Of a DNA stretch of 64,000 nt, positions 1,701 through 53,127 are shown one piece after another (position 1 is the stretch's first letter; every line of letters begins with the position of its first letter). Position numbers and translations under genes: made by a program. The notes below the pieces were generated by a model. That model ran no database searches. It was given only the letters and a program-made list of their open reading frames with translations, and had not been told where the DNA came from. Source of the stretch: Tachypleus tridentatus (taxonomy: Eukaryota; Arthropoda; Merostomata; Xiphosura; Limulidae); contig NC_134834.1 in assembly GCF_004210375.1 (NCBI RefSeq), forward strand, positions 158,305,290 to 158,369,289. The letters are read 5' to 3'.

Positions 1701-1737
1701 GAACAACGTTTCGACCGTCCTAGGTCATCTTCAGGTT
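1701..1737 (-). ncRNA. Hammerhead-like motif in the left terminus of the Penelope element
   Basis: On the minus strand: AAC, CTGAAGA, T, GACC-loop-GGTC, GAAA, CGTT, GTTC. The core is intact and stem I has three clear pairs (AAC/GTT). Confidence 0.5.
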
Positions 1738-2605: not shown

Positions 2606-2645
2606 TTAACCTGAAGATGACCTAGGAAGGTCTAAACATTGTACT
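2606..2645 (+). ncRNA. Decayed hammerhead-like motif in the right terminus
   Basis: CTGAAGA (2611-2617) and GACC/GGTC (2619-2622, 2629-2632) remain. The second core strand is TAAA instead of GAAA. Confidence 0.4.
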
Positions 2646-3066: not shown

Positions 3067-4223
3067 CTCTTCAAAAAAGAAACGCAAAAGGGATATTTTT
3101 GTTATTTTAAAGAGAAATATATGTAATAACGTTACAAGCTCAGAGTATGTGATGTTACACGTGTTAAGGCACTGATTGTCAGACCAAAATGACAATAAAA
3201 GTTTTGCACTTTGAAAACGGAGGAAAACATCGGATTTTTCGCCAAAACGCATGCGTGTCCAATAAATTTGTTTGAGAAATCTGCATGTTTTGCAAGTGCA
3301 ACATGTGCAAAATCCCTATAAAAGTGACGGGTTCTCGGTTTCCATAGCTCAGTGTTAAGCCACCGACACGCAATACAGTTACGGCAAGACTGACTGAAGC
3401 ACAACGCAACAACGCCATTGGTCGCATGGAAACAGGCGAATCTCGATCAGATGTTGCCAGAGCTGTGAATGTCCACCCAAGCACAATCACAAGGCTATGG
3501 AATCGTCACCAACAACATGGATCAACTCGTGACCGTCCACGATCTGGCAGACCTCGTGTGACCACGCCTGCACAAGATCGCAACATCCGGTTACGTTACC
3601 TTCGGGATAGGACTACCACTGCGACGTCTACTGCCTCAACCATAACAGGGCTGCGTAGGAATTTCGATCAGACCGTATGCAACCGTCTACGAGATTCTTA
3701 GGCCCCATGTGCAACCCGTCATGGTGAACGTCAACGACGTTTTTCAACATGACAACGCCCGTCCTCACACAGCCCGACTCACCACTGTCTTCTTGAGACA
3801 CCACAACATCAACGTTCTTCCCTGGCCTTCCAGATCACCAGATTTAAACCCCATCGAACATCTTTGGGACGAGTTGGACCGACGTCTGCGACGGCGACAA
3901 CCTCAATCGCAGACTCTACCTCAGCTTGCAGCAGCTTTGCAGGCTGAGTGGACAGCCATTCCACAGGATGTGATTCATCATCTCATCGCTTCCATGGGCA
4001 GGAGATGCCAAGCAGTTATTGATGCTTACGGGGGGGGCATACTCGTTATTGACGTTGAGTGACGTTAAACTTCACCTAGTGAGCTTGGACTTCGCCTTTG
4101 CAGACTTTGGATATTCAGCAGCGAATGTGCAAAGTTTCACAGATGTCATACAGAACTACCCGGAATAAACTTGTTAACAATGTGTCTCATATTTTGCCTT
4201 TTGCGTTTCTTTTTTTTGAAGAG
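3067..4223 (+). mobile_element. Tc1-like transposon, internally deleted
   Basis: Inverted ends share CTCTTCAAAAAA...GAAACGCAAAAGG (3067-3091 and 4200-4223) with TATA on both sides. It is about 1.16 kb, shorter than usual for Tc1-like elements because the middle of the transposase is missing. Confidence 0.9.
3381..4062 (+). pseudogene. Tc1-like (DD34E) transposase with deleted centre
   Basis: The N-terminal part reads TARLTEAQRNNAIGRMETGE onward, with the paired-like helix region (NVHPSTITRLWNRHQQHG, RPRSGRPRVTT), and breaks at about 3699 after NRLRDS. The C-terminal part, in another frame, has FQHDNARPHTAR and WPSRSPDLNPIEHLWDELDR, with D and E 34 residues apart. The first catalytic Asp segment is absent. 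Codon 3381-3383 is ACG where a start ATG would fit. A run of eight G at 4030-4037 shifts the frame just before the expected GGHTRY end. Confidence 0.9.
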
Positions 4224-11672: not shown

Positions 11673-11945
11673 GGCCCGGCATAGCCAAGCGTGTTAAGGC
11701 GTTCGACTCGTAATCCGAGGGTCGCGGGTTTAAATCCCAGTCGTACCAAACATGCTCGCCCTATCAGCCGTAGGGGTGTCATCATGTGACGGTCAATCCA
11801 ACTATTCGTTGGCAAAAGAGTAGCCCAAGAGTTGGCGGTAGGTGGTGATGACTAACTGCCTTCCCTCTAGTCTTACACTGCTAAATTATGGACAGCTAGC
11901 ACAGATAGCCCTCGAGTAGCTTTGTGCGAAATTCAAAACAAACAT
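11673..11945 (+). repeat. SINE-T, full length
   Basis: A near-consensus copy of about 273 bp: GGCCCGGCATAGCCAAGCG start, CTCGTAA anticodon loop (CGT, threonine), diverged box B GGTTTAAATCC, full body and tail. The tRNA part forms roughly the first 75 bp. Confidence 0.92.
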
Positions 11946-13211
11946 TTATATATAAGCATTGATTTTAAATTTTTAGATAAAATACAGAATTTTTCAAAAT
12001 ATATAAGTGAGTGAATTTCAAGCTCTCGTCCAATTTTACTGTTGCATTTCTTGATATAACTATTCATTAATCAGTTAATGTTTGTAGATGCTGTTGAAAC
12101 ACATTAGGTAGTTGTGCCTTTTCTACTAGTTAGGCGTGTGTAACATTGGGTAGCAAGTAAGGTATCTCCGCACTCTTTTTCATCTTTCCTCAAGACTGAG
12201 CGATATCTCATTTATCAGGTTTGATACGTCGTTTGGTAGTTAATTAACTAGTCGGAGTTGGAAAGCGTAATATATGTTTTATTACCTCTTTAACATTCAA
12301 TTTTCTTTGAACAGAAGACATCCTGGAAACGGGGTAATTCATTAAAGGAAAAACGCACATTTAATGTTTGCTCTCGAATGAACAGAAATGCTGGAAGTAA
12401 AAACTTCTGTAACGACTGTACTTGGTTTAGTGATACTTTTTTCAGAAGAGTTTGTTGTTAAGGTAAAAAAAAACATTATTTGAAACTCACTTTTATGAAT
12501 TTGTTGTTACACCTGAACGATATTTTATGTACTCGGTGCAAAATCAGAATCTCAGTCGTCCATAGTTTTGAACTACTGACAGCCAGTCTCAACCAAAAAG
12601 CGAGACTAGCTGTAATTCTTATGATGCACACAGAAGGCTGAAAATGAAAAGTGGTAAATTACATCACGTTTCGAACCCGCGACTCAACACGTTGATCATT
12701 AGCCCACGCTTGGGCCTGTTTCAAAAGTTATCAGCCCTACGCTTCATTGTGAAAAGTTACCATGATAACAAACAGTAGTTCGGGCTTTTCAGGCTTGCAT
12801 TTTCGCGTACTTCACAGATTATAAACTAGATTGTTGGGAAGGCCAATTTTTCTTTTTAAAAACTACCAAGGTTACAACAATAGTTGATGTTATCAAGCTT
12901 GCCATTTTGTTTTAAAAGTTGTTAGGGTCGCACATAAATTAATTTTATTAAATCCAATACTATATTTATGGAGGCCATCTAAAAAATTGAAAATAATAGC
13001 AAGTATTAAGGATCATTTATTTCGTTTTAACTTCACGAAAATCAAAGATAAAAAATCTATAATTATTTTACTGTAAGTTTCTCCTCTAAAATATTTTATA
13101 AGAACCTGCTTTATAAACAAACAAATAAAACTATGGATTGGAAAATATATTTTCTCTGACTTCAAAAATAACTACTCTCTATAGTTTAACTAATTTGTTA
13201 CTCATGTTAAA
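11946..13211. other. Unrecognised spacer
   Basis: No protein match by eye. 12660-12720 on the minus strand has a GGGTTCGAAAC-like scrap that may be an old tRNA-type head. Confidence 0.4.
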
Positions 13212-13522: not shown

Positions 13523-13806
13523 TGGTCCGGCATGGCCAAGCCTGTTAAGGCGTTTGACTCGTAATCTGAGGGTCGCGGGTTCGAATCCCGGTCGCACCAA
13601 ACATGTTCGCCCTTTCAGTCGTGGGGGCGATACAAGTGACGGTAAATCCCACTATTCGTTGGTAAAAAAGTAGCCCAAGAGTTGGCGGTGAGTGGTGATG
13701 ACTAGCTGTCTTCCCTCTAGTCTTACACTGCTAAATTAGGGACGGTTAGCGCAGATAGCCCTGGAATAGCTTTGCGCGAAATTCAAAAAACAAACAAAAC
13801 AAGCAA
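13523..13806 (+). repeat. SINE-T, full length
   Basis: Intact box A and box B (GGTTCGAATCC), and a tail ending in AAACAAAAC. Confidence 0.92.
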
Positions 13807-20104: not shown

Positions 20105-20150
20105 CATCCTGATGAGTGATTTTTGAAGTCACGAAACTGTTGAATAAATT
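20105..20150 (+). ncRNA. Hammerhead-ribozyme-like motif
   Basis: CTGATGA at 20109-20115, stem II GTGA (20116-20119) with TCAC (20129-20132), and GAAA at 20133-20136, followed by CTGTTG. Core and stem II are exact. Stem I is weak (TC with GA, then a mismatch) and stem III would be only one or two pairs. Confidence 0.5.
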
Positions 20151-22489: not shown

Positions 22490-22800
22490 ATTAATACTAA
22501 ATAAAGAAACAAACATAAACAAAGGCAAAATTAAGAAGCCTTACTTATAAAACAACTCAAGCCCAAAATAAACCAATACAAAGGAACACCTTTATACCTA
22601 TATTAATAAATATAACCAAACATTTAAGCACGCCCTCTACATTCCTACACTCAGTTACACAACCCCCTTCAAACATGTGGTCAGCTATCGGCCAGTTATC
22701 TCTTTCTTTCTTTATGAACCTGACGATGACCGAGAAGGTCGAAACGTTGTTCGCTCCTCTACATAGTGTTTTTTCTATCCATACCAGCCGTTTTTACATA
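22490..22800 (+). mobile_element. Penelope-like element 3' fragment
   Basis: Holds only the last codons of the GIY-YIG ORF (TNINKGKIK, one frameshift, then [20 protein letters not shown] and stop), followed by the terminal region and a hammerhead-like motif ending near CCATACCAGCCG. Confidence 0.8.
22715..22753 (+). ncRNA. Hammerhead-ribozyme-like motif with intact core
   Basis: Order: stem I GAAC (22716-22719); core CTGACGA (22720-22726); one extra T; stem II GACC-loop GAGAA-GGTC (22728-22740); core GAAA (22741-22744); palindromic AACGTT; then GTTC (22749-22752) closing stem I. Very short stem III hammerheads are established in Penelope-like elements. The extra T between A9 and stem II departs from the textbook core. 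Confidence 0.6.
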
Positions 22801-23218
22801 TATAATTAACATTTAATTAACTTCTAAGTTAAACTAAAAATTTCCGGCTATTTGAAGTCTTAATACGTCGTGTACGTAACACAATAAGTTGGACACTCGT
22901 CTGAGATAAATCGTAATACATGACAATTTGCATTGAAACAAACAACCATTTTTTTGTCGGTGGCACTGATATGTCAATGCTTGTGAATACTTCTTCTACT
23001 AAACATCTATCTCAGAATCGGGCAAAAACATTCATTAAGAGATAAGAAACTTCATAGTTATGATTCAAGCGTGCACTGTATAAACAAGAAACATAGTAAT
23101 TGGATAGTTTATCTTTTTTAAATCAATGTAGTAGTTTTATTATCGTAGCAAATTACCTTATCCAAGAGGTACCTATCATCTCAGTAAAGTATCGTGCTCT
23201 TCGAAACGGTGCGTTCTG

Positions 23219-23717: not shown

Positions 23718-23990
23718 AAGTTTGTTTTTGAATTTCGCACAAAGCTACTCGAGGGCTGTCTGTGCTAGCCGTCCCTAATTTAGCAGTGTAAGACTAGAGG
23801 GAAAGCAGCTAGTCATCACCACCCACCGCCAACTCTTGGGCTACTTTTTTTACCAACGAATAGTGGGATTGACCGTCACATTATAACGCCCCCACGGCTG
23901 GGAGGGCGAGCATGTTTGGCGCGACTCGGGCGCGAACCCGCGACCCTCAGATTATGAAGCGCACGCCTTAACGCGCTAGGCCATGAACAT
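23718..23990 (-). repeat. SINE-T, full length, second subfamily
   Basis: The head reads GCGCCTAGCGCG-type with CTTCATAATC and box B GGTTCGCGCCC, shared with the copies at 29584 and 52822. Confidence 0.88.
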
Positions 23991-36160: not shown

Positions 36161-36975
36161 TACACACTTATGCAAATTAATTTTAACAGGACGGAAAATT
36201 ACGATTTTTTCATTTTTTTTGTGTTTTATTTCTGAGAATCCAAAAATTACTCACAAATTAATACATGATATGGCACCTTTATTTTTCAGATCATTAATCT
36301 GATTTGGCATCAAGTCCACGAGTTGACTGCAATCTTTACTCATTTTGGATTGAGGTACCACACCTCAATTAGCTTATCTTTCGTAGTACAGTCTTTTCTC
36401 CGAAGTATTTCTTTACAAATCACCCAAAGATTTTCAACTGGATTTAAGTCCAGAGAGTTTCCAAGCCAGTCCAGCACCTTTATTCGCATTGCAGTCATAA
36501 AATTCTCACAAGTTTCAGTGTTGCACAGAGCCAGATCTTGCTGAAAAATGCTAGATCCATCTGTAAATCTTTTTTTCAATTCTGGAACGACTCTTCTCTG
36601 CAAAACTTCGATGAACTGTGGTCCTCGCATCATACCTTCTACGATATGTAAGCCTCTGATGCCATAGTAGCTGAAAAAGCCCCAAAACATCTTCAAGGGA
36701 TGTTTTTTTAAGAACTGATTGATGCAAGATTCTCGAAGTTTCTCACCTGGAGATCTGCAAACATGAAGACTTCTTTGACACTGTATGAAGAAATGAGTCT
36801 TGTCACTGAATAACACCTTCCTCCATTTTCTTACGTCCAGTTCTTGTATTTCAGACCCCACCGATACCGTTTTTTCTTTATTGAGTTGGTAAGTTTTTGG
36901 GCTGGTCTCCTTGCCCTTCTAACGCAATTTTGAATGACATAATATTCCTCAAAATTTCGTCATATATCCCAAATA
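36161..36975 (-). mobile_element. Truncated Tc1-like transposon
   Basis: The left end reads CATACACACTTATGCAAATT, like Tc1-type termini. The transposase 5' half and the other inverted repeat are missing beyond about 36975. Confidence 0.75.
36340..36960 (-). pseudogene. Tc1-like (DD34E family) transposase fragment
   Basis: Open from 36861 to 36340: KWRKVLFSDKTHFFIQCQRS holds the first Asp, SIFQQDLALCNTE the second, LDLNPVENLW the Glu. Spacing between second Asp and Glu is 33 instead of 34, so a codon was lost. A degenerate upstream continuation reaches about 36960. The DNA-binding half is absent. Confidence 0.88.
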
Positions 36976-43200: not shown

Positions 43201-46200
43201 TTAAATAATATAAATACTACAAAGTAAAAGTTGACAAATACAACTGTGTAAAACAAGGAATTGCTCTAAATCCACTTTAATGATATCAGAAAAACATGCA
43301 AACTCAATAAGTCTTGATACAAAATGGTAAAAACCCTATAACCCAAGCACTTTTGAAAGATGGACCTTTTTTCTTCAGGAGCAAACTGGGAAACAAAGCC
43401 CACCTTTCAAAAGTGCTTGGGTTGCACAGTTTTTATCACTTTGTATCTAAATCCACTTTATTATCAAAACATAGAACATTAACTCATTGTTAATTTCTGT
43501 TAATTTTTTTCTTAATTCATTCATGTTCCTTTTCCTGTTTGTTATTTTTTTAATATATCTATTTAAGATATTTTGTTAATTTTGATTTAACATAAAATGT
43601 TTTTGTTTGACAAGATTTATTATTTATCTTGAAACAAACAGTAATATAAATGTTTAAGAGTGGCATAATAAATAAAACATGAACAAACCTTTTGTCCTAC
43701 AGATTTCAATTAGATTTACTACATTCTCATGGTTCAGAAGCTGTAAGATCTTTATCTCCCTCAAAGCTGTAATGGGGAACTAAAAACACACAAATATAAA
43801 CAAACAGTAAAACATACTACCAAAAACTAATAAAATTAATCCACTGTACAACTGTATAAGAAAGCAAGTTCTAATAGTTTAATATTTAAGCTTTGAATTG
43901 TATTAAATTTAGTGTTTCTAATCCCTTAACCCTTTCACAATGGGTCAGGGTTCAAAGACCATATCCGTTTGTTGACTTGCATTCAAAATTTTATTGTACT
44001 GCTATTTTATAAATTTATGTTAATAAGTCTGGAATCACATCATACATTATAATTCAAACCTTAATATTATATATCAGCAAATATCTTAATTTAAAAGTAA
44101 ATATTAAAAGAACACACAAAGATTTTATTGAGTCACATAGTATGAAGAATGTAGTGCTGTTTAAAATTAAATGTTTGTGATATCAAATTACTGAGTCAAT
44201 AGTTTTGTATCAGTTAGGTACCCAAATTACTAATACAAGGTCTGTTCAAAAAATACGTGGACTGACGTCATAAAACAAAATGTACTTTATTTAGAAGTTA
44301 CAGGTCTGGAACCCCTTCAAAGTACTCTCCTCCCAATGCACACACTTATCCCAATGTGTTTCCACTTGTTGAAACAGTCCTGGTGCGCTTCTTTTGTAAT
44401 GTCCTCCAGCTCCTTAAATTAGCATTTGCCTTAATCTCGGAATCGTCTCAAATCTTCCCTTTCAAGGGTCTTTTGAGTTTGGGGAACAAGAAAAGATCGC
44501 AAGGAGCAAGGTCAGGTGAGTAGGGGGGGGGGAAAAGAACAATGATCGAGTGTTTGGCCAAAAACTCACGAGTTCTAAGGGCTGAATGGGCTGGAGCGTT
44601 GTCGTGATGAAAAAACCAGTCGCCACTCCTCCACATTTCTGGCCTTTTGTGATGGATGGCATCCCTCAGATGTTTCAGAACTTCAATGTAGTAAGTCTGG
44701 TTCACTGTGGAGCCTTCAGGGAGGTACTCATGGTGAACAACACCCTTAGCATCGAAGAAAACTGTCAGCATCACCTTGACCTTGGATCAAACTTGGCGAG
44801 CTTTTTTGGGTCTGGGAAATGTTTCACCCATCCACTGGGACGATTGGACCTTTGTTTCAATGTCATAACCATAAACCCATGATTCATCACCTGTTATGAT
44901 CCTTGACAAGAAGTTTTCATCTTCTTCTAAACGATCAAACAGTTCCTGACAAACCTGTACGCGATGGGCTTTTTGTTCGTCCATCATCAGGCGTAGCACA
45001 AATTTCGCAGCAACACGGTGCATCTTCAATTTTTTGGTCAAAATCTCGTAACAAGATCCAACTGAGATCCCACACTCTTCAGCAAGCTCCCTGACAGTCA
45101 GATGTCGATTTGCCCACACCAGGGTGTTGATTTTGTCAACATGTGGGTCATCAGTTGACATGGAAGGACGTCCAGGATGCTCATCATCTTCAATGGACTG
45201 TTGACCATCCTTAAAACGTTCATGTCACTTGAAACATGCCGTACGCTTCATAGAAACTTTTGCTATGCTTAACACGGCTTACGGTGATGTCGCAGATTTT
45301 CCCAAGTTTAACACAAAATTTCACAGCAAGTAGTTGCTCCTTCAGGTCATTCATTCTGAAATCCGCCAAATGAAAAAAATTGCACTTCATTTAAAATCGC
45401 ATAGCTAATACACAAATGAAGATATCTGCAATTGGGAAATGTCATCGTAATCAGCTGATCTGTGCGAACCTAGCGACACCAAGCGGATTCCCCTGGAACC
45501 AACTGGAGCCGCGTAATTCAAACAGTCCGCATATTTTTTTAACAGACCTCGTATTATCAAGCAAACATATACAATTAGAGCCACATATATCTATTTTGCT
45601 GAGATATGTCTTGTGTACTGAATTAAACACAATAGCCCCATTCAACCCCTTCTTTACATTTAAATGGTCCCTTATATATACACTTACTTCAATATTTTAC
45701 ATGTGAATAACCAATCAACAGCTTAGAATATCCCCAGAGTAGTTTTCCCTGCCATTTTAACCTTTGAAAATGCTACAACATTCTTTCAATCCAAGATTTA
45801 AATGAGGTAAGTGTTGTCTTTTGTCTACTCAAAGTTTCATAGTTTTTAAAATCTAAGAAAATCTTAGTCATTAAGCATAATAAATTATAGTGGAATTATA
45901 TGGTATCAGTGTAGTTACTTATTTCTTTAGCTATTCAAGATTTGTTTATATCCTCCACATGCAAAATTTTAAAAGGCTTAGCAATCTACGCCCAGCAACG
46001 AGTAAAAAGGTCATAGTGAAAAGAGATAATTGTTTGCTATACTTCTTGATTTATTGTTCTATACTTTAAAAACATAGCTTTCATAATTTATTTCTTAATA
46101 GTAATAATCTATATACATATATATAAACGATATGTGACCATATATTACAAAATACTAGTCCACTAAAGCACAGCCAAGACAAAAGACTGTCAATACAATC

Positions 46201-49200: not shown

Positions 49201-49817
49201 CCTTCAAACACATGGTCAGCTATTGGTCAGTTACTTCTTTCTTTCTTTGTAAACCTGACGATGACCAAAGAAGGTCAAAGCGTTGTTTACTCCTCTACAT
49301 AGTTTTCTCTATCCATACCTGCCGTTTTTACATATATATTTTTCTCTACAAGTGGGTTTTCTCATCATCACGGATTATTAGATCAAGTATTTACATATTA
49401 ATTTCTCTATTACTATTAATGAAATATTTTGAACTTATTGCACACAGTTCATTTGGAGATTAAATTTATTTTGCTGTTAAACTGATTTATTACTTTTTGC
49501 TTCATCAGACCTAATTACTCACTCATACTCTCACTTATCTAGACAAACTTAACATTGGACATTATAAAGTATAACTTATAAATACAAGTTATCCTTTGAC
49601 GTTATACTACAACTTATAACTAAAAGTTATAAAGTCCAAAGTCCAGAGGTAAGACTTAAGATACTTACCCAAATGTTCCTTGGCCAATTTTAGCAAGTTT
49701 TTCATACTTTGTAACTTCGTCGCAGTAAGGGAAATCGAAATCTTCCAATTTATTCATAACCTGTTGCGCATGGCTTACACTACTCGAACTAACGTTAGTA
49801 CTCGTACTTGTATTCAT
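39918..49817 (-). CDS. Cdk9: Cyclin-dependent kinase 9 (P-TEFb catalytic subunit), complete, 7 coding exons
   Basis: CDK9 pairs with cyclin T to form P-TEFb, a nuclear kinase that phosphorylates the RNA polymerase II C-terminal domain, DSIF and NELF to release paused polymerase. Coding exons on the minus strand are 49817-49669, 46437-46356, 43779-43689, 43045-42868, 42338-42092, 40609-40460 and 40205-39918. Each intron is GT-AG and the phases fit, giving 394 residues plus TGA. Visible motifs: glycine loop GQGTFG at about 45-50, catalytic K67, PITALRE helix with E85, gatekeeper F122, HRD with D168, DFG with D186, and T-loop RYTNR with T205 (T186 in human). The C-terminal kinase tail and terminal RVF also match CDK9. 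Human CDK9 has 372 residues; here the N terminus is 19 residues longer and Ser/Thr-rich. The first ATG, at 49815-49817, was chosen because it opens the only exon that reads into [13 protein letters not shown]. Introns 1 and 2 carry transposons. Confidence 0.97.
40460..40609 (-). CDS. Cdk9: Cdk9 coding exon 6
   Basis: 150 bp, phase 0 at both ends. Encodes [18 protein letters not shown] through [11 protein letters not shown], colinear with the human kinase C-lobe. Confidence 0.95.
42092..42338 (-). CDS. Cdk9: Cdk9 coding exon 5
   Basis: 247 bp. Contains the catalytic loop DMKAAN, the DFG motif, the activation segment [19 protein letters not shown] and RSPIMQ. It ends in phase 0 before GTGTGT. 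Confidence 0.97.
42868..43045 (-). CDS. Cdk9: Cdk9 coding exon 4
   Basis: 178 bp. Covers the hinge ([15 protein letters not shown]) to the start of the catalytic loop (NKILHR). The exon ends after two bases of the Arg codon, and the next exon supplies T-GAT for Arg-Asp. Confidence 0.95.
43316..43446. repeat. Hairpin-forming inverted repeat in Cdk9 intron 3
   Basis: Arms 43316-43363 and 43400-43446 are near-complementary. Their core, ACCCAAGCACTTTTGAAAG, is found perfectly in both. The 14-mer CTAAATCCACTTTA lies on both sides (about 43266 and 43447) and looks like a target-site duplication or a larger direct repeat. Confidence 0.7.
43689..43779 (-). CDS. Cdk9: Cdk9 coding exon 3
   Basis: 91 bp encoding [20 protein letters not shown] through ICRTK plus one base. 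It holds the PITALRE C-helix motif that originally named CDK9. The donor is GTTTGT. Confidence 0.95.
44236..45551 (-). mobile_element. mariner (DD34D) element in Cdk9 intron 2
   Basis: 1316 bp between TA dinucleotides (44234-44235 and 45552-45553). The terminal inverted repeats start CAAGGTCTGTTCAAAAAATA on the left and, read inward on the other strand, CGAGGTCTGTTAAAAAAATA on the right. Length and ends are typical of mariner. Confidence 0.93.
44291..45356 (-). pseudogene. Broken mariner transposase
   Basis: Starts ATG at 45356 ([19 protein letters not shown]) and ends near [14 protein letters not shown] with TAA at 44291-44293. The catalytic residues are visible: D in ITGDESW, D in HHDNAPAH, and D in SPDLAPCD with 34 residues between the last two. 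Breaks: a frameshift near 45200 after the first helix region, an in-frame TGA at 44787-44789 where relatives have Arg (CGA to TGA would explain it), and a frameshift near 44450. The intact-looking segments are 45161-44790 and 44774-44451. It cannot make transposase. Confidence 0.9.
46356..46437 (-). CDS. Cdk9: Cdk9 coding exon 2
   Basis: 82 bp. Completes Gly50 and encodes [18 protein letters not shown] with the catalytic lysine, ending [10 protein letters not shown] before GTAAGT. The acceptor is TTTATAG. Confidence 0.95.
46984..47255 (-). repeat. SINE-T, full length, in Cdk9 intron 1
   Basis: Same strand as Cdk9. Many CG sites have become TG or CA, which suggests an old copy or methylation decay. 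Confidence 0.88.
48911..49141 (+). pseudogene. GIY-YIG endonuclease domain of a Penelope-like element, 5' truncated
   Basis: Reads [20 protein letters not shown] then an [18 protein letters not shown] segment and [18 protein letters not shown]-x2-C-x3-FYIGE is the GIY-YIG entry typical of Penelope elements. Compared with the copy at 1.8-2.0 kb, about 11 residues are missing before [11 protein letters not shown]. The reverse transcriptase is absent. Upstream bases from 48835 still read as the preceding linker ([21 protein letters not shown]-like). Confidence 0.8.
49249..49290 (+). ncRNA. Hammerhead-ribozyme-like motif, core mutated
   Basis: Stem I GTAAAC (49249-49254) pairs perfectly with GTTTAC (49285-49290). 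CTGACGA follows at 49255-49261, and stem II is GACC with GGTC (49263-49266, 49273-49276). The second core strand reads AAAG instead of GAAA, so this copy is probably inactive. Confidence 0.5.
49669..49817 (-). CDS. Cdk9: Cdk9 coding exon 1
   Basis: Encodes residues 1-49 and two bases of codon 50. It starts with a Ser/Thr-rich stretch ([13 protein letters not shown]), then the CDK9-like [18 protein letters not shown]. The donor GTAAGT follows directly. Confidence 0.95.
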
Positions 49818-52821: not shown

Positions 52822-53091
52822 TTGTTTGTTTGTTTTGGAATTTCGCACAAAGCTACTCGAGGGCTATCTGTGCTAGCCATCTCTAATTCAGTAGTGTAAG
52901 AGTAGAGGGAAGCCAGCTAGTCATCACTACCCACCGCCAACTCTTGGGGTATTCTTTTACCAACGAATAGTGGGATTGACCGTCACATTATAACGCCCCC
53001 ACGGCTGGGAGGGCGAGCATGTTTGGCACGACCGGGATGCAAACCCGCGACCCTCAGATTACGAAGTGCACGCCTTAACGCGCTAGGCGAT
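52822..53091 (-). repeat. SINE-T, full length, second subfamily
   Basis: Reverse orientation. The CGCACGCCTTAACGCGCTAG head is nearly identical to the copy at 23718. Confidence 0.88.
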
Positions 53092-53127
53092 GAGTAGTAT
53101 ACAATATACAGAAATACTTTTACATAT

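Follow-up and report, generated by a model that had tools for sequence, protein, structure and literature searches.

A putative minimal type I hammerhead ribozyme in the 3' terminal repeat of an abundant Penelope-like element of Tachypleus tridentatus

Results

The motif and its place in the element

A stretch of 64,000 nucleotides from the genome of Tachypleus tridentatus (contig NC_134834.1, positions 158,305,290 to 158,369,289), referred to from here on as the window, contains at 22490-22805 (+) a 5'-truncated copy of a Penelope-like element (PLE). The copy comprises the end of an open reading frame (ORF), a 3' terminal repeat with a hammerhead ribozyme motif at 22715-22753, and a short tail end; its limits are approximate and are those of homology to genomic copies. 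The decayed C-terminal part of the ORF (22490-22606, +) closes with the stop TAA at 22604-22606 and is similar to the C-termini of open frames at two other genomic loci, L019, where it reads ...QYKGTPSYLY, and L031. The motif lies about 110 bases 3' of the stop of this broken ORF. From the sequence comparisons described below, it is very probably a minimal type I hammerhead ribozyme of an animal PLE, carried in the 3' terminal repeat. This is a known kind of ribozyme, and the novelty lies in an additional member.

The two strands of stem I, TGAAC (22715-22719, +) and GTTCG (22749-22753, +), were read directly and their pairing was obtained by folding; GAAC (22716-22719) and GTTC (22749-22752) form four Watson-Crick pairs, extended by one T-G wobble (22715, 22753), with A x C as the next opposed bases. 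Between these strands lie the core segment C3 to A9 (CTGACGA, 22720-22726, +; N7 is C and the core is scored as intact), an extra U (T at 22727, +) that spells AUG with its neighbours, and stem II (22728-22740, +), in which GACC (22728-22731) pairs with GGTC (22737-22740) around a five-nucleotide loop, GAGAA (22732-22736), as against six nucleotides, GAAGAA, in the family consensus. The remaining segment (22741-22748, +) holds G12 A13 A14 A15.1 (GAAA, 22741-22744), ACGT (22744-22747), U16.1 and H17 (T22748); the labels follow the usual hammerhead numbering. All positions of the type I core are present (C3 U4 G5 A6 N7 G8 A9, G12 A13 A14 A15.1, U16.1, H17), stem II (4 bp) and stem I both pair, and cleavage is predicted after 22748. 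A canonical helix III is lacking, in that the palindrome ACGU stands alone and a monomer cannot close the helix.

A preliminary description of this locus had reported the exact CTGACGA...GAAA core and 4-bp stem II, which a direct reading of the letters bears out. It had also equated stem III with the palindrome AACGTT; that palindrome is present, but stem III would be ACGT alone, the outer A being A14 and the outer T being H17. Its placement of the motif among minimal hammerheads with a palindromic stem III in PLE termini stands, and two reports describe such motifs as possibly acting as dimers (PMC7761336, PMC6155905).

Abundance and conservation of the motif

The genome searched (2.17 Gb, 205 contigs) holds 6081 + 6014 = 12,095 occurrences of the exact pattern, which requires the extra T, GAAACGTTGTT and a 4-bp stem II, and 0 of the same pattern reversed; for the full motif, base composition predicts ~1e-6 genome-wide occurrences. 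The loose pattern CTGANGA..GAAA is common by itself, with 16 matches in the window against a mean of 4.1 in shuffles. The motif at 22715-22753 is a real hammerhead motif and not a chance match, and it is one of thousands of decaying insertions. A family this large and countable allows neutral variation at the level of copies to be separated from conservation at the level of families.

The alignments started from 162 motif places (L029 was omitted, as it overlaps L010), of which 155 fell within the limits of length and score and 150 were unique. The resulting 115 copies of one family, A/B, and 35 of another, W, were tested apart; they are best matches to window queries or neighbours of reverse transcriptase (RT) matches (50 of the 150 RT matches), and are not a random sample. 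Of the small regions fetched, no motif could be recognised in L080, the motif of L087 has a deletion, and L088 and L096 end within it; L101, L104, L105 and L107 gave no motif place. By eye, L013/L014 and L017/L018 appear to be duplicates of one insertion each.

Twenty-eight positions were treated as constrained, namely the core, stem II, stem III, H17 and the first three pairs of stem I. None of these 28 differs between the A/B and W consensuses, compared with 20 of the 57 positions that could be aligned downstream (Fisher p 1e-4); within the 42 bases of the motif there are five differences, located in outer stem I, at N7 and in loop II. The core is intact in 84 of 115 A/B copies and in 9 of 35 W copies. 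Conservation at the level of families is the best evidence here for a function of the motif, and it makes it highly likely that the core, stem II and stem III were maintained in active source elements.

The host element and the orientation of its repeats

Matches to the RT profile RVT_1 above the cut-off were obtained in L038 (5.9e-11) and L031 (1.6e-9), which identifies an RT, presumably of the PLE clade; the match in L010 fell below the cut-off (3.7e-6), and a search of L023 for RVT_1 found none. A copy of the motif, mutated in some cases, lies downstream of the RT frame in all 10 RT loci that were fetched (L029-L038, of 150 RT matches). The host element encodes an RT and a presumed C-terminal endonuclease.

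In 20 loci of ten kb each, two pairs of which look duplicated, a second copy or fragment of the repeat is head-to-head in 12, direct in 1 and absent in 7. The first 100 places listed include 16 neighbouring pairs of intact motifs less than 6 kb apart, of which 15 are head-to-head and 1 is direct; farther neighbours are mixed. The loci here thus show the pseudo-long terminal repeats (pLTRs) by which PLEs are recognised, and head-to-head repeats of this kind are described for PLEs in an earlier study (PMC3846280). With a palindromic stem III of 2 bp, cleavage after U22748 would depend mainly on the pairing of two motifs by way of ACGU:ACGU or, alternatively, on help from the protein of the element; either dependence is suggested by analogy with published relatives. 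Since close copies are mostly head-to-head, dimers in cis should be uncommon, so that dimer action would have to take place between molecules or be helped by protein. At L159:1-501, an insertion with an inverted 5' repeat was seen by eye inside a satellite-like array with units of ~60 bp.

Insertion ends and the predicted cleavage site

The 130 bases after C3 were compared in 42 copies, the predicted cut falling after base 30. The median of the median homology ends is 89, and 39 of the 42 medians are at least 60, that is, at least 30 bases past the cut. Most medians lie at 84-94, and in 17 of the 42 copies the upper quartile lies at 115-127. There are two common homology ends (~84-94 and 115-127 bases after C3), ~35 bases apart, in agreement with the optional 'tail' of 30-40 bp and the two internal starts of reverse transcription described for PLEs, the tail lying between the two starts in PAc, the Poseidon element of Anolis carolinensis (PMC11167929). 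Short medians were found for L034 (31), L032 (38) and a decayed window copy at 2611 (51).

Ribozyme cleavage as the source of the insertion ends was rejected, as a median end 27-33 bases from C3 occurs in 1 of the 42 copies (L034). Given the homology past the cut in 39 of 42, most insertions seem to have been copied from RNA that was not cut here. As in the anole work, these ends suggest that the template for transposition does not owe its 3' end to cleavage; reverse transcription would instead start internally, on RNA uncut at the site.

These ends also bear on a reading in which the motif is a relic, no longer needed by the source elements and persisting through copy number. Homology of genomic copies beyond the cut would fit a relic, as would the neutral look of copy-level changes; in the anole element, moreover, mutating the hammerhead left insertion in vitro unaffected, and RNA ends at the cut site were looked for and not found (PMC11167929). 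The between-family contrast of 0 of 28 against 20 of 57 differences is, however, not expected of a relic, and we regard this reading as unlikely.

Counter-evidence and alternative structures

Several results weigh against a functional hammerhead in a PLE and are brought together here. The downstream region used as a yardstick of conservation is itself partly near-unchanged (ACCCATACCAGCCGTTT), the upstream flank is too diverged for a comparison of A/B with W, and the core is broken in 26 of 35 W copies. Rfam models, a check that the preliminary description had named, gave no hammerhead at the gathering score in the whole window and none at E up to 10 in 22600-22850 and six relatives, an outcome to be expected because stem III is lacking. 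As to the endonuclease, no Pfam or NCBIfam match to GIY-YIG was found at E up to 1, and a structure model of the presumed endonuclease had a mean predicted local distance difference test score (pLDDT) of 33.6. The presumed GIY-YIG assignment comes from a stretch in L019, C..C...YIGE..R..R..EH, that resembles the PLE endonuclease motif. A sequence search of PDB returned nothing useful.

Folding likewise speaks against the ribozyme, the hammerhead being the minimum-energy fold in 0 of 5 sequences. For the A/B monomer, a plain hairpin in which the core GACG pairs with CGUU is favoured by ~4 kcal/mol, and for the W monomers another fold, likewise not the hammerhead, is predicted. In an alternative reading there is no ribozyme, and the motif is a plain hairpin, GAAC-GACG-UGACC / GGUCG-CGUU-GUUC, that serves protein binding or RNA localisation. 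The A/B consensus, the 22715 copy and the 49249 copy all have this hairpin as their minimum-energy fold; for the anole element, the authors hypothesise that a protein-binding motif is located in the ORF within its first 172 nt, and in the absence of protein the anole hammerhead did not cut (PMC11167929). In the W family, where N7 is A, the hairpin is not the predicted fold, yet C3-A6, G8, A9 and G12-A14 are unchanged between the consensuses. Conservation favours a hammerhead over the hairpin because A at N7 spoils the latter and not the former, and we consider the hairpin quite unlikely as an explanation.

The preliminary description had further read a compensatory change in stem I as a sign of selection on RNA structure, from the GAAC/GTTC of the 22715 copy and GTAAAC (49249-49254) / GTTTAC (49285-49290) in a second copy, used there as a comparison hammerhead. 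All of these letters are present as given. The second copy (49249-49290, +) indeed has a stem I of 6 bp, but its core is broken by G12>A at 49277 and A15.1>G at 49280. Four exact 42-base strings that differ at pair 4 of stem I alone were counted genome-wide, giving G/C 5528, A/C 96, G/T 238 and A/T 4. The double change to A/T was therefore seen 4 times, with 4.1 expected under independence (odds ratio 0.97), which indicates that the two sides change independently, as in neutral decay after insertion. For stems I-III, no pair was associated at p < 0.05 in the 115 A/B or the 35 W copies. The W copies oppose U x C at pair 4, which is standard in 0% of them, and U x U at pair 5, standard in 9%, so that these pairs hardly form and stem I of the W family is 3 bp.

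Stem pairing is thus conserved and not covarying. Covariation of stem I was rejected on the pair 4 counts and the aligned copies, and this too counts against the proposed structure, as its RNA-level support then comes from conservation alone. That selection has kept the closing stem paired between copies by compensatory evolution is extremely improbable. In its favour, the 49249-49290 copy keeps 6 pairs despite three changes from the A/B consensus, and L089 likewise has the A/T double change; these stand against a broken core in the former (the copy at 49255), chance-level double changes at pair 4, which is the sole pair counted genome-wide, and the near-absence of standard pairs 4 and 5 in the W family. 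The removal of an apparent covariation by counting thousands of copies calls for caution over compensatory changes noted between two decaying repeats.

The extra U after A9

The extra U is carried by 115 of 115 A/B copies and 32 of 35 W copies, and the exact pattern with the extra T outnumbers the same pattern without it by 12,095 to 3 genome-wide. With any other base after A9 and stem II left free, 474 matches were found (control 3); among the 100 listed, many belong to the same family and have C or A in this place. The idea that the extra T is a local error or a rarity was thereby rejected, and what the preliminary description had noted as unusual for this copy is a trait of the family. A very large family therefore carries a fixed extra nucleotide in its core. 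For the hammerhead of Chrysanthemum chlorotic mottle viroid, De la Pena and Flores reportedly described in 2001 an additional nucleotide, said to be an A, that also lies between A9 and helix II; the likeness would extend to its position, the base here being U and the carrier a PLE.

By consensus, the AUG formed at A9-U-G opens 13 codons (A/B) or 2 codons (W) before a stop, and such short frames do not make it look like an ORF start. The loop of the window copy has one base fewer, and there the frame runs for 27 codons by eye. An ORF starting inside the inverted repeat of L038 was also considered as a family trait and was rejected, since among 40 candidates scored, the full-length junction matched at its own place alone.

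The extra U also enters a more elaborate scheme. Head-to-head repeats would put the hammerhead near the 3' end of the transcript and its complement near the 5' end, and the two would pair into a panhandle that masks the ribozyme, the antisense transcript being symmetrical. Transposition RNA of full length could thus keep the ribozyme off, whereas transcripts that are 5'-truncated or tandem would be the only ones in which it is on, and the conserved U, by way of the AUG, would let the binding of a ribosome or protein shift the core out of the alternative hairpin and into the hammerhead. If true, the ribozyme would be a built-in check of template completeness. The conjunction of these steps is, in our estimate, very unlikely.

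Relation to known elements

The closest known counterparts of the proposed hammerhead are the minimal hammerheads of PLEs, in which the lack of helix III is a trait of the variant (PMC6155905, PMC7761336). The resemblance includes a type I core with almost no helix III, a location in pLTRs, thousands of motifs per genome and a proposed dimer action (PMC6155905, PMC7761336); unlike those motifs, neighbouring copies here are mostly inverted and not tandem.

In PAc, the hammerhead lies at the junction of pLTR and ORF; the ORF is said to start where stem II starts, the start codon being preceded by C3 and G8 and followed, 26 bp downstream, by the cut (PMC11167929). This arrangement suggests the same A9-U-G in PAc. 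Unlike the PAc ORF, which starts at stem II (PMC11167929), the AUG here opens only the short frames given above. The endonuclease-containing Penelope elements of Adineta vaga are similar in having pLTRs and an inverted, head-to-head 5' copy, together with an optional tail of 31 bp (PMC3846280); in the main text of that report 'hammerhead' and 'ribozyme' occur 0 times.

Other copies and features

Two further copies of the motif, both of the W family, occur in the window. The one at 1701-1737 (-) has A at N7, the loop TAGGAC, a 3-bp stem I and an intact core, and the one at 2608-2645 (+), with a core broken by G12>T, is head-to-head with the copy at 1737. Together they mark a W-family element at 1701-2645 with head-to-head repeats, the motif copies at 1737 (-) and 2608 (+) being 0.9 kb apart; an RT-like reading, THTGLYI, was noted by eye beside the copy at 2608.

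The letters CTGATGA GTGA..TCAC GAAA at 20109-20136 (+), after which comes CTGTTGAATAAA, make up a canonical hammerhead core that lacks the extra base and whose 4-bp stem II is perfect. A good stem I was not found for it within 80 bases; it may be a decayed copy from a different hammerhead family, or it may be due to chance. Elsewhere in the genome, other hammerhead-like lineages were seen at L163:301 (+), L164:301 (-) and L165:301 (-) (oriented positions), for instance CTGATGA A GCT..GGC GAAACGTTGTTT followed by A/T-rich sequence, with an extra A after A9, a 3-bp stem II and almost no stem I. By eye, the 300 bases upstream of these show no recognisable PLE ORF.

Among the longest frames of the window are remnants that by eye resemble transposases of the Tc1/mariner type, at 3646-4062 (+), 36340-36918 (-) and 44787-45224 (-). 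A dispersed repeat of ~265 bp has more than 12 full or partial copies in the window, such as those at 11680-11948, 13531-13795, 23720-23985 and 52828-53093.
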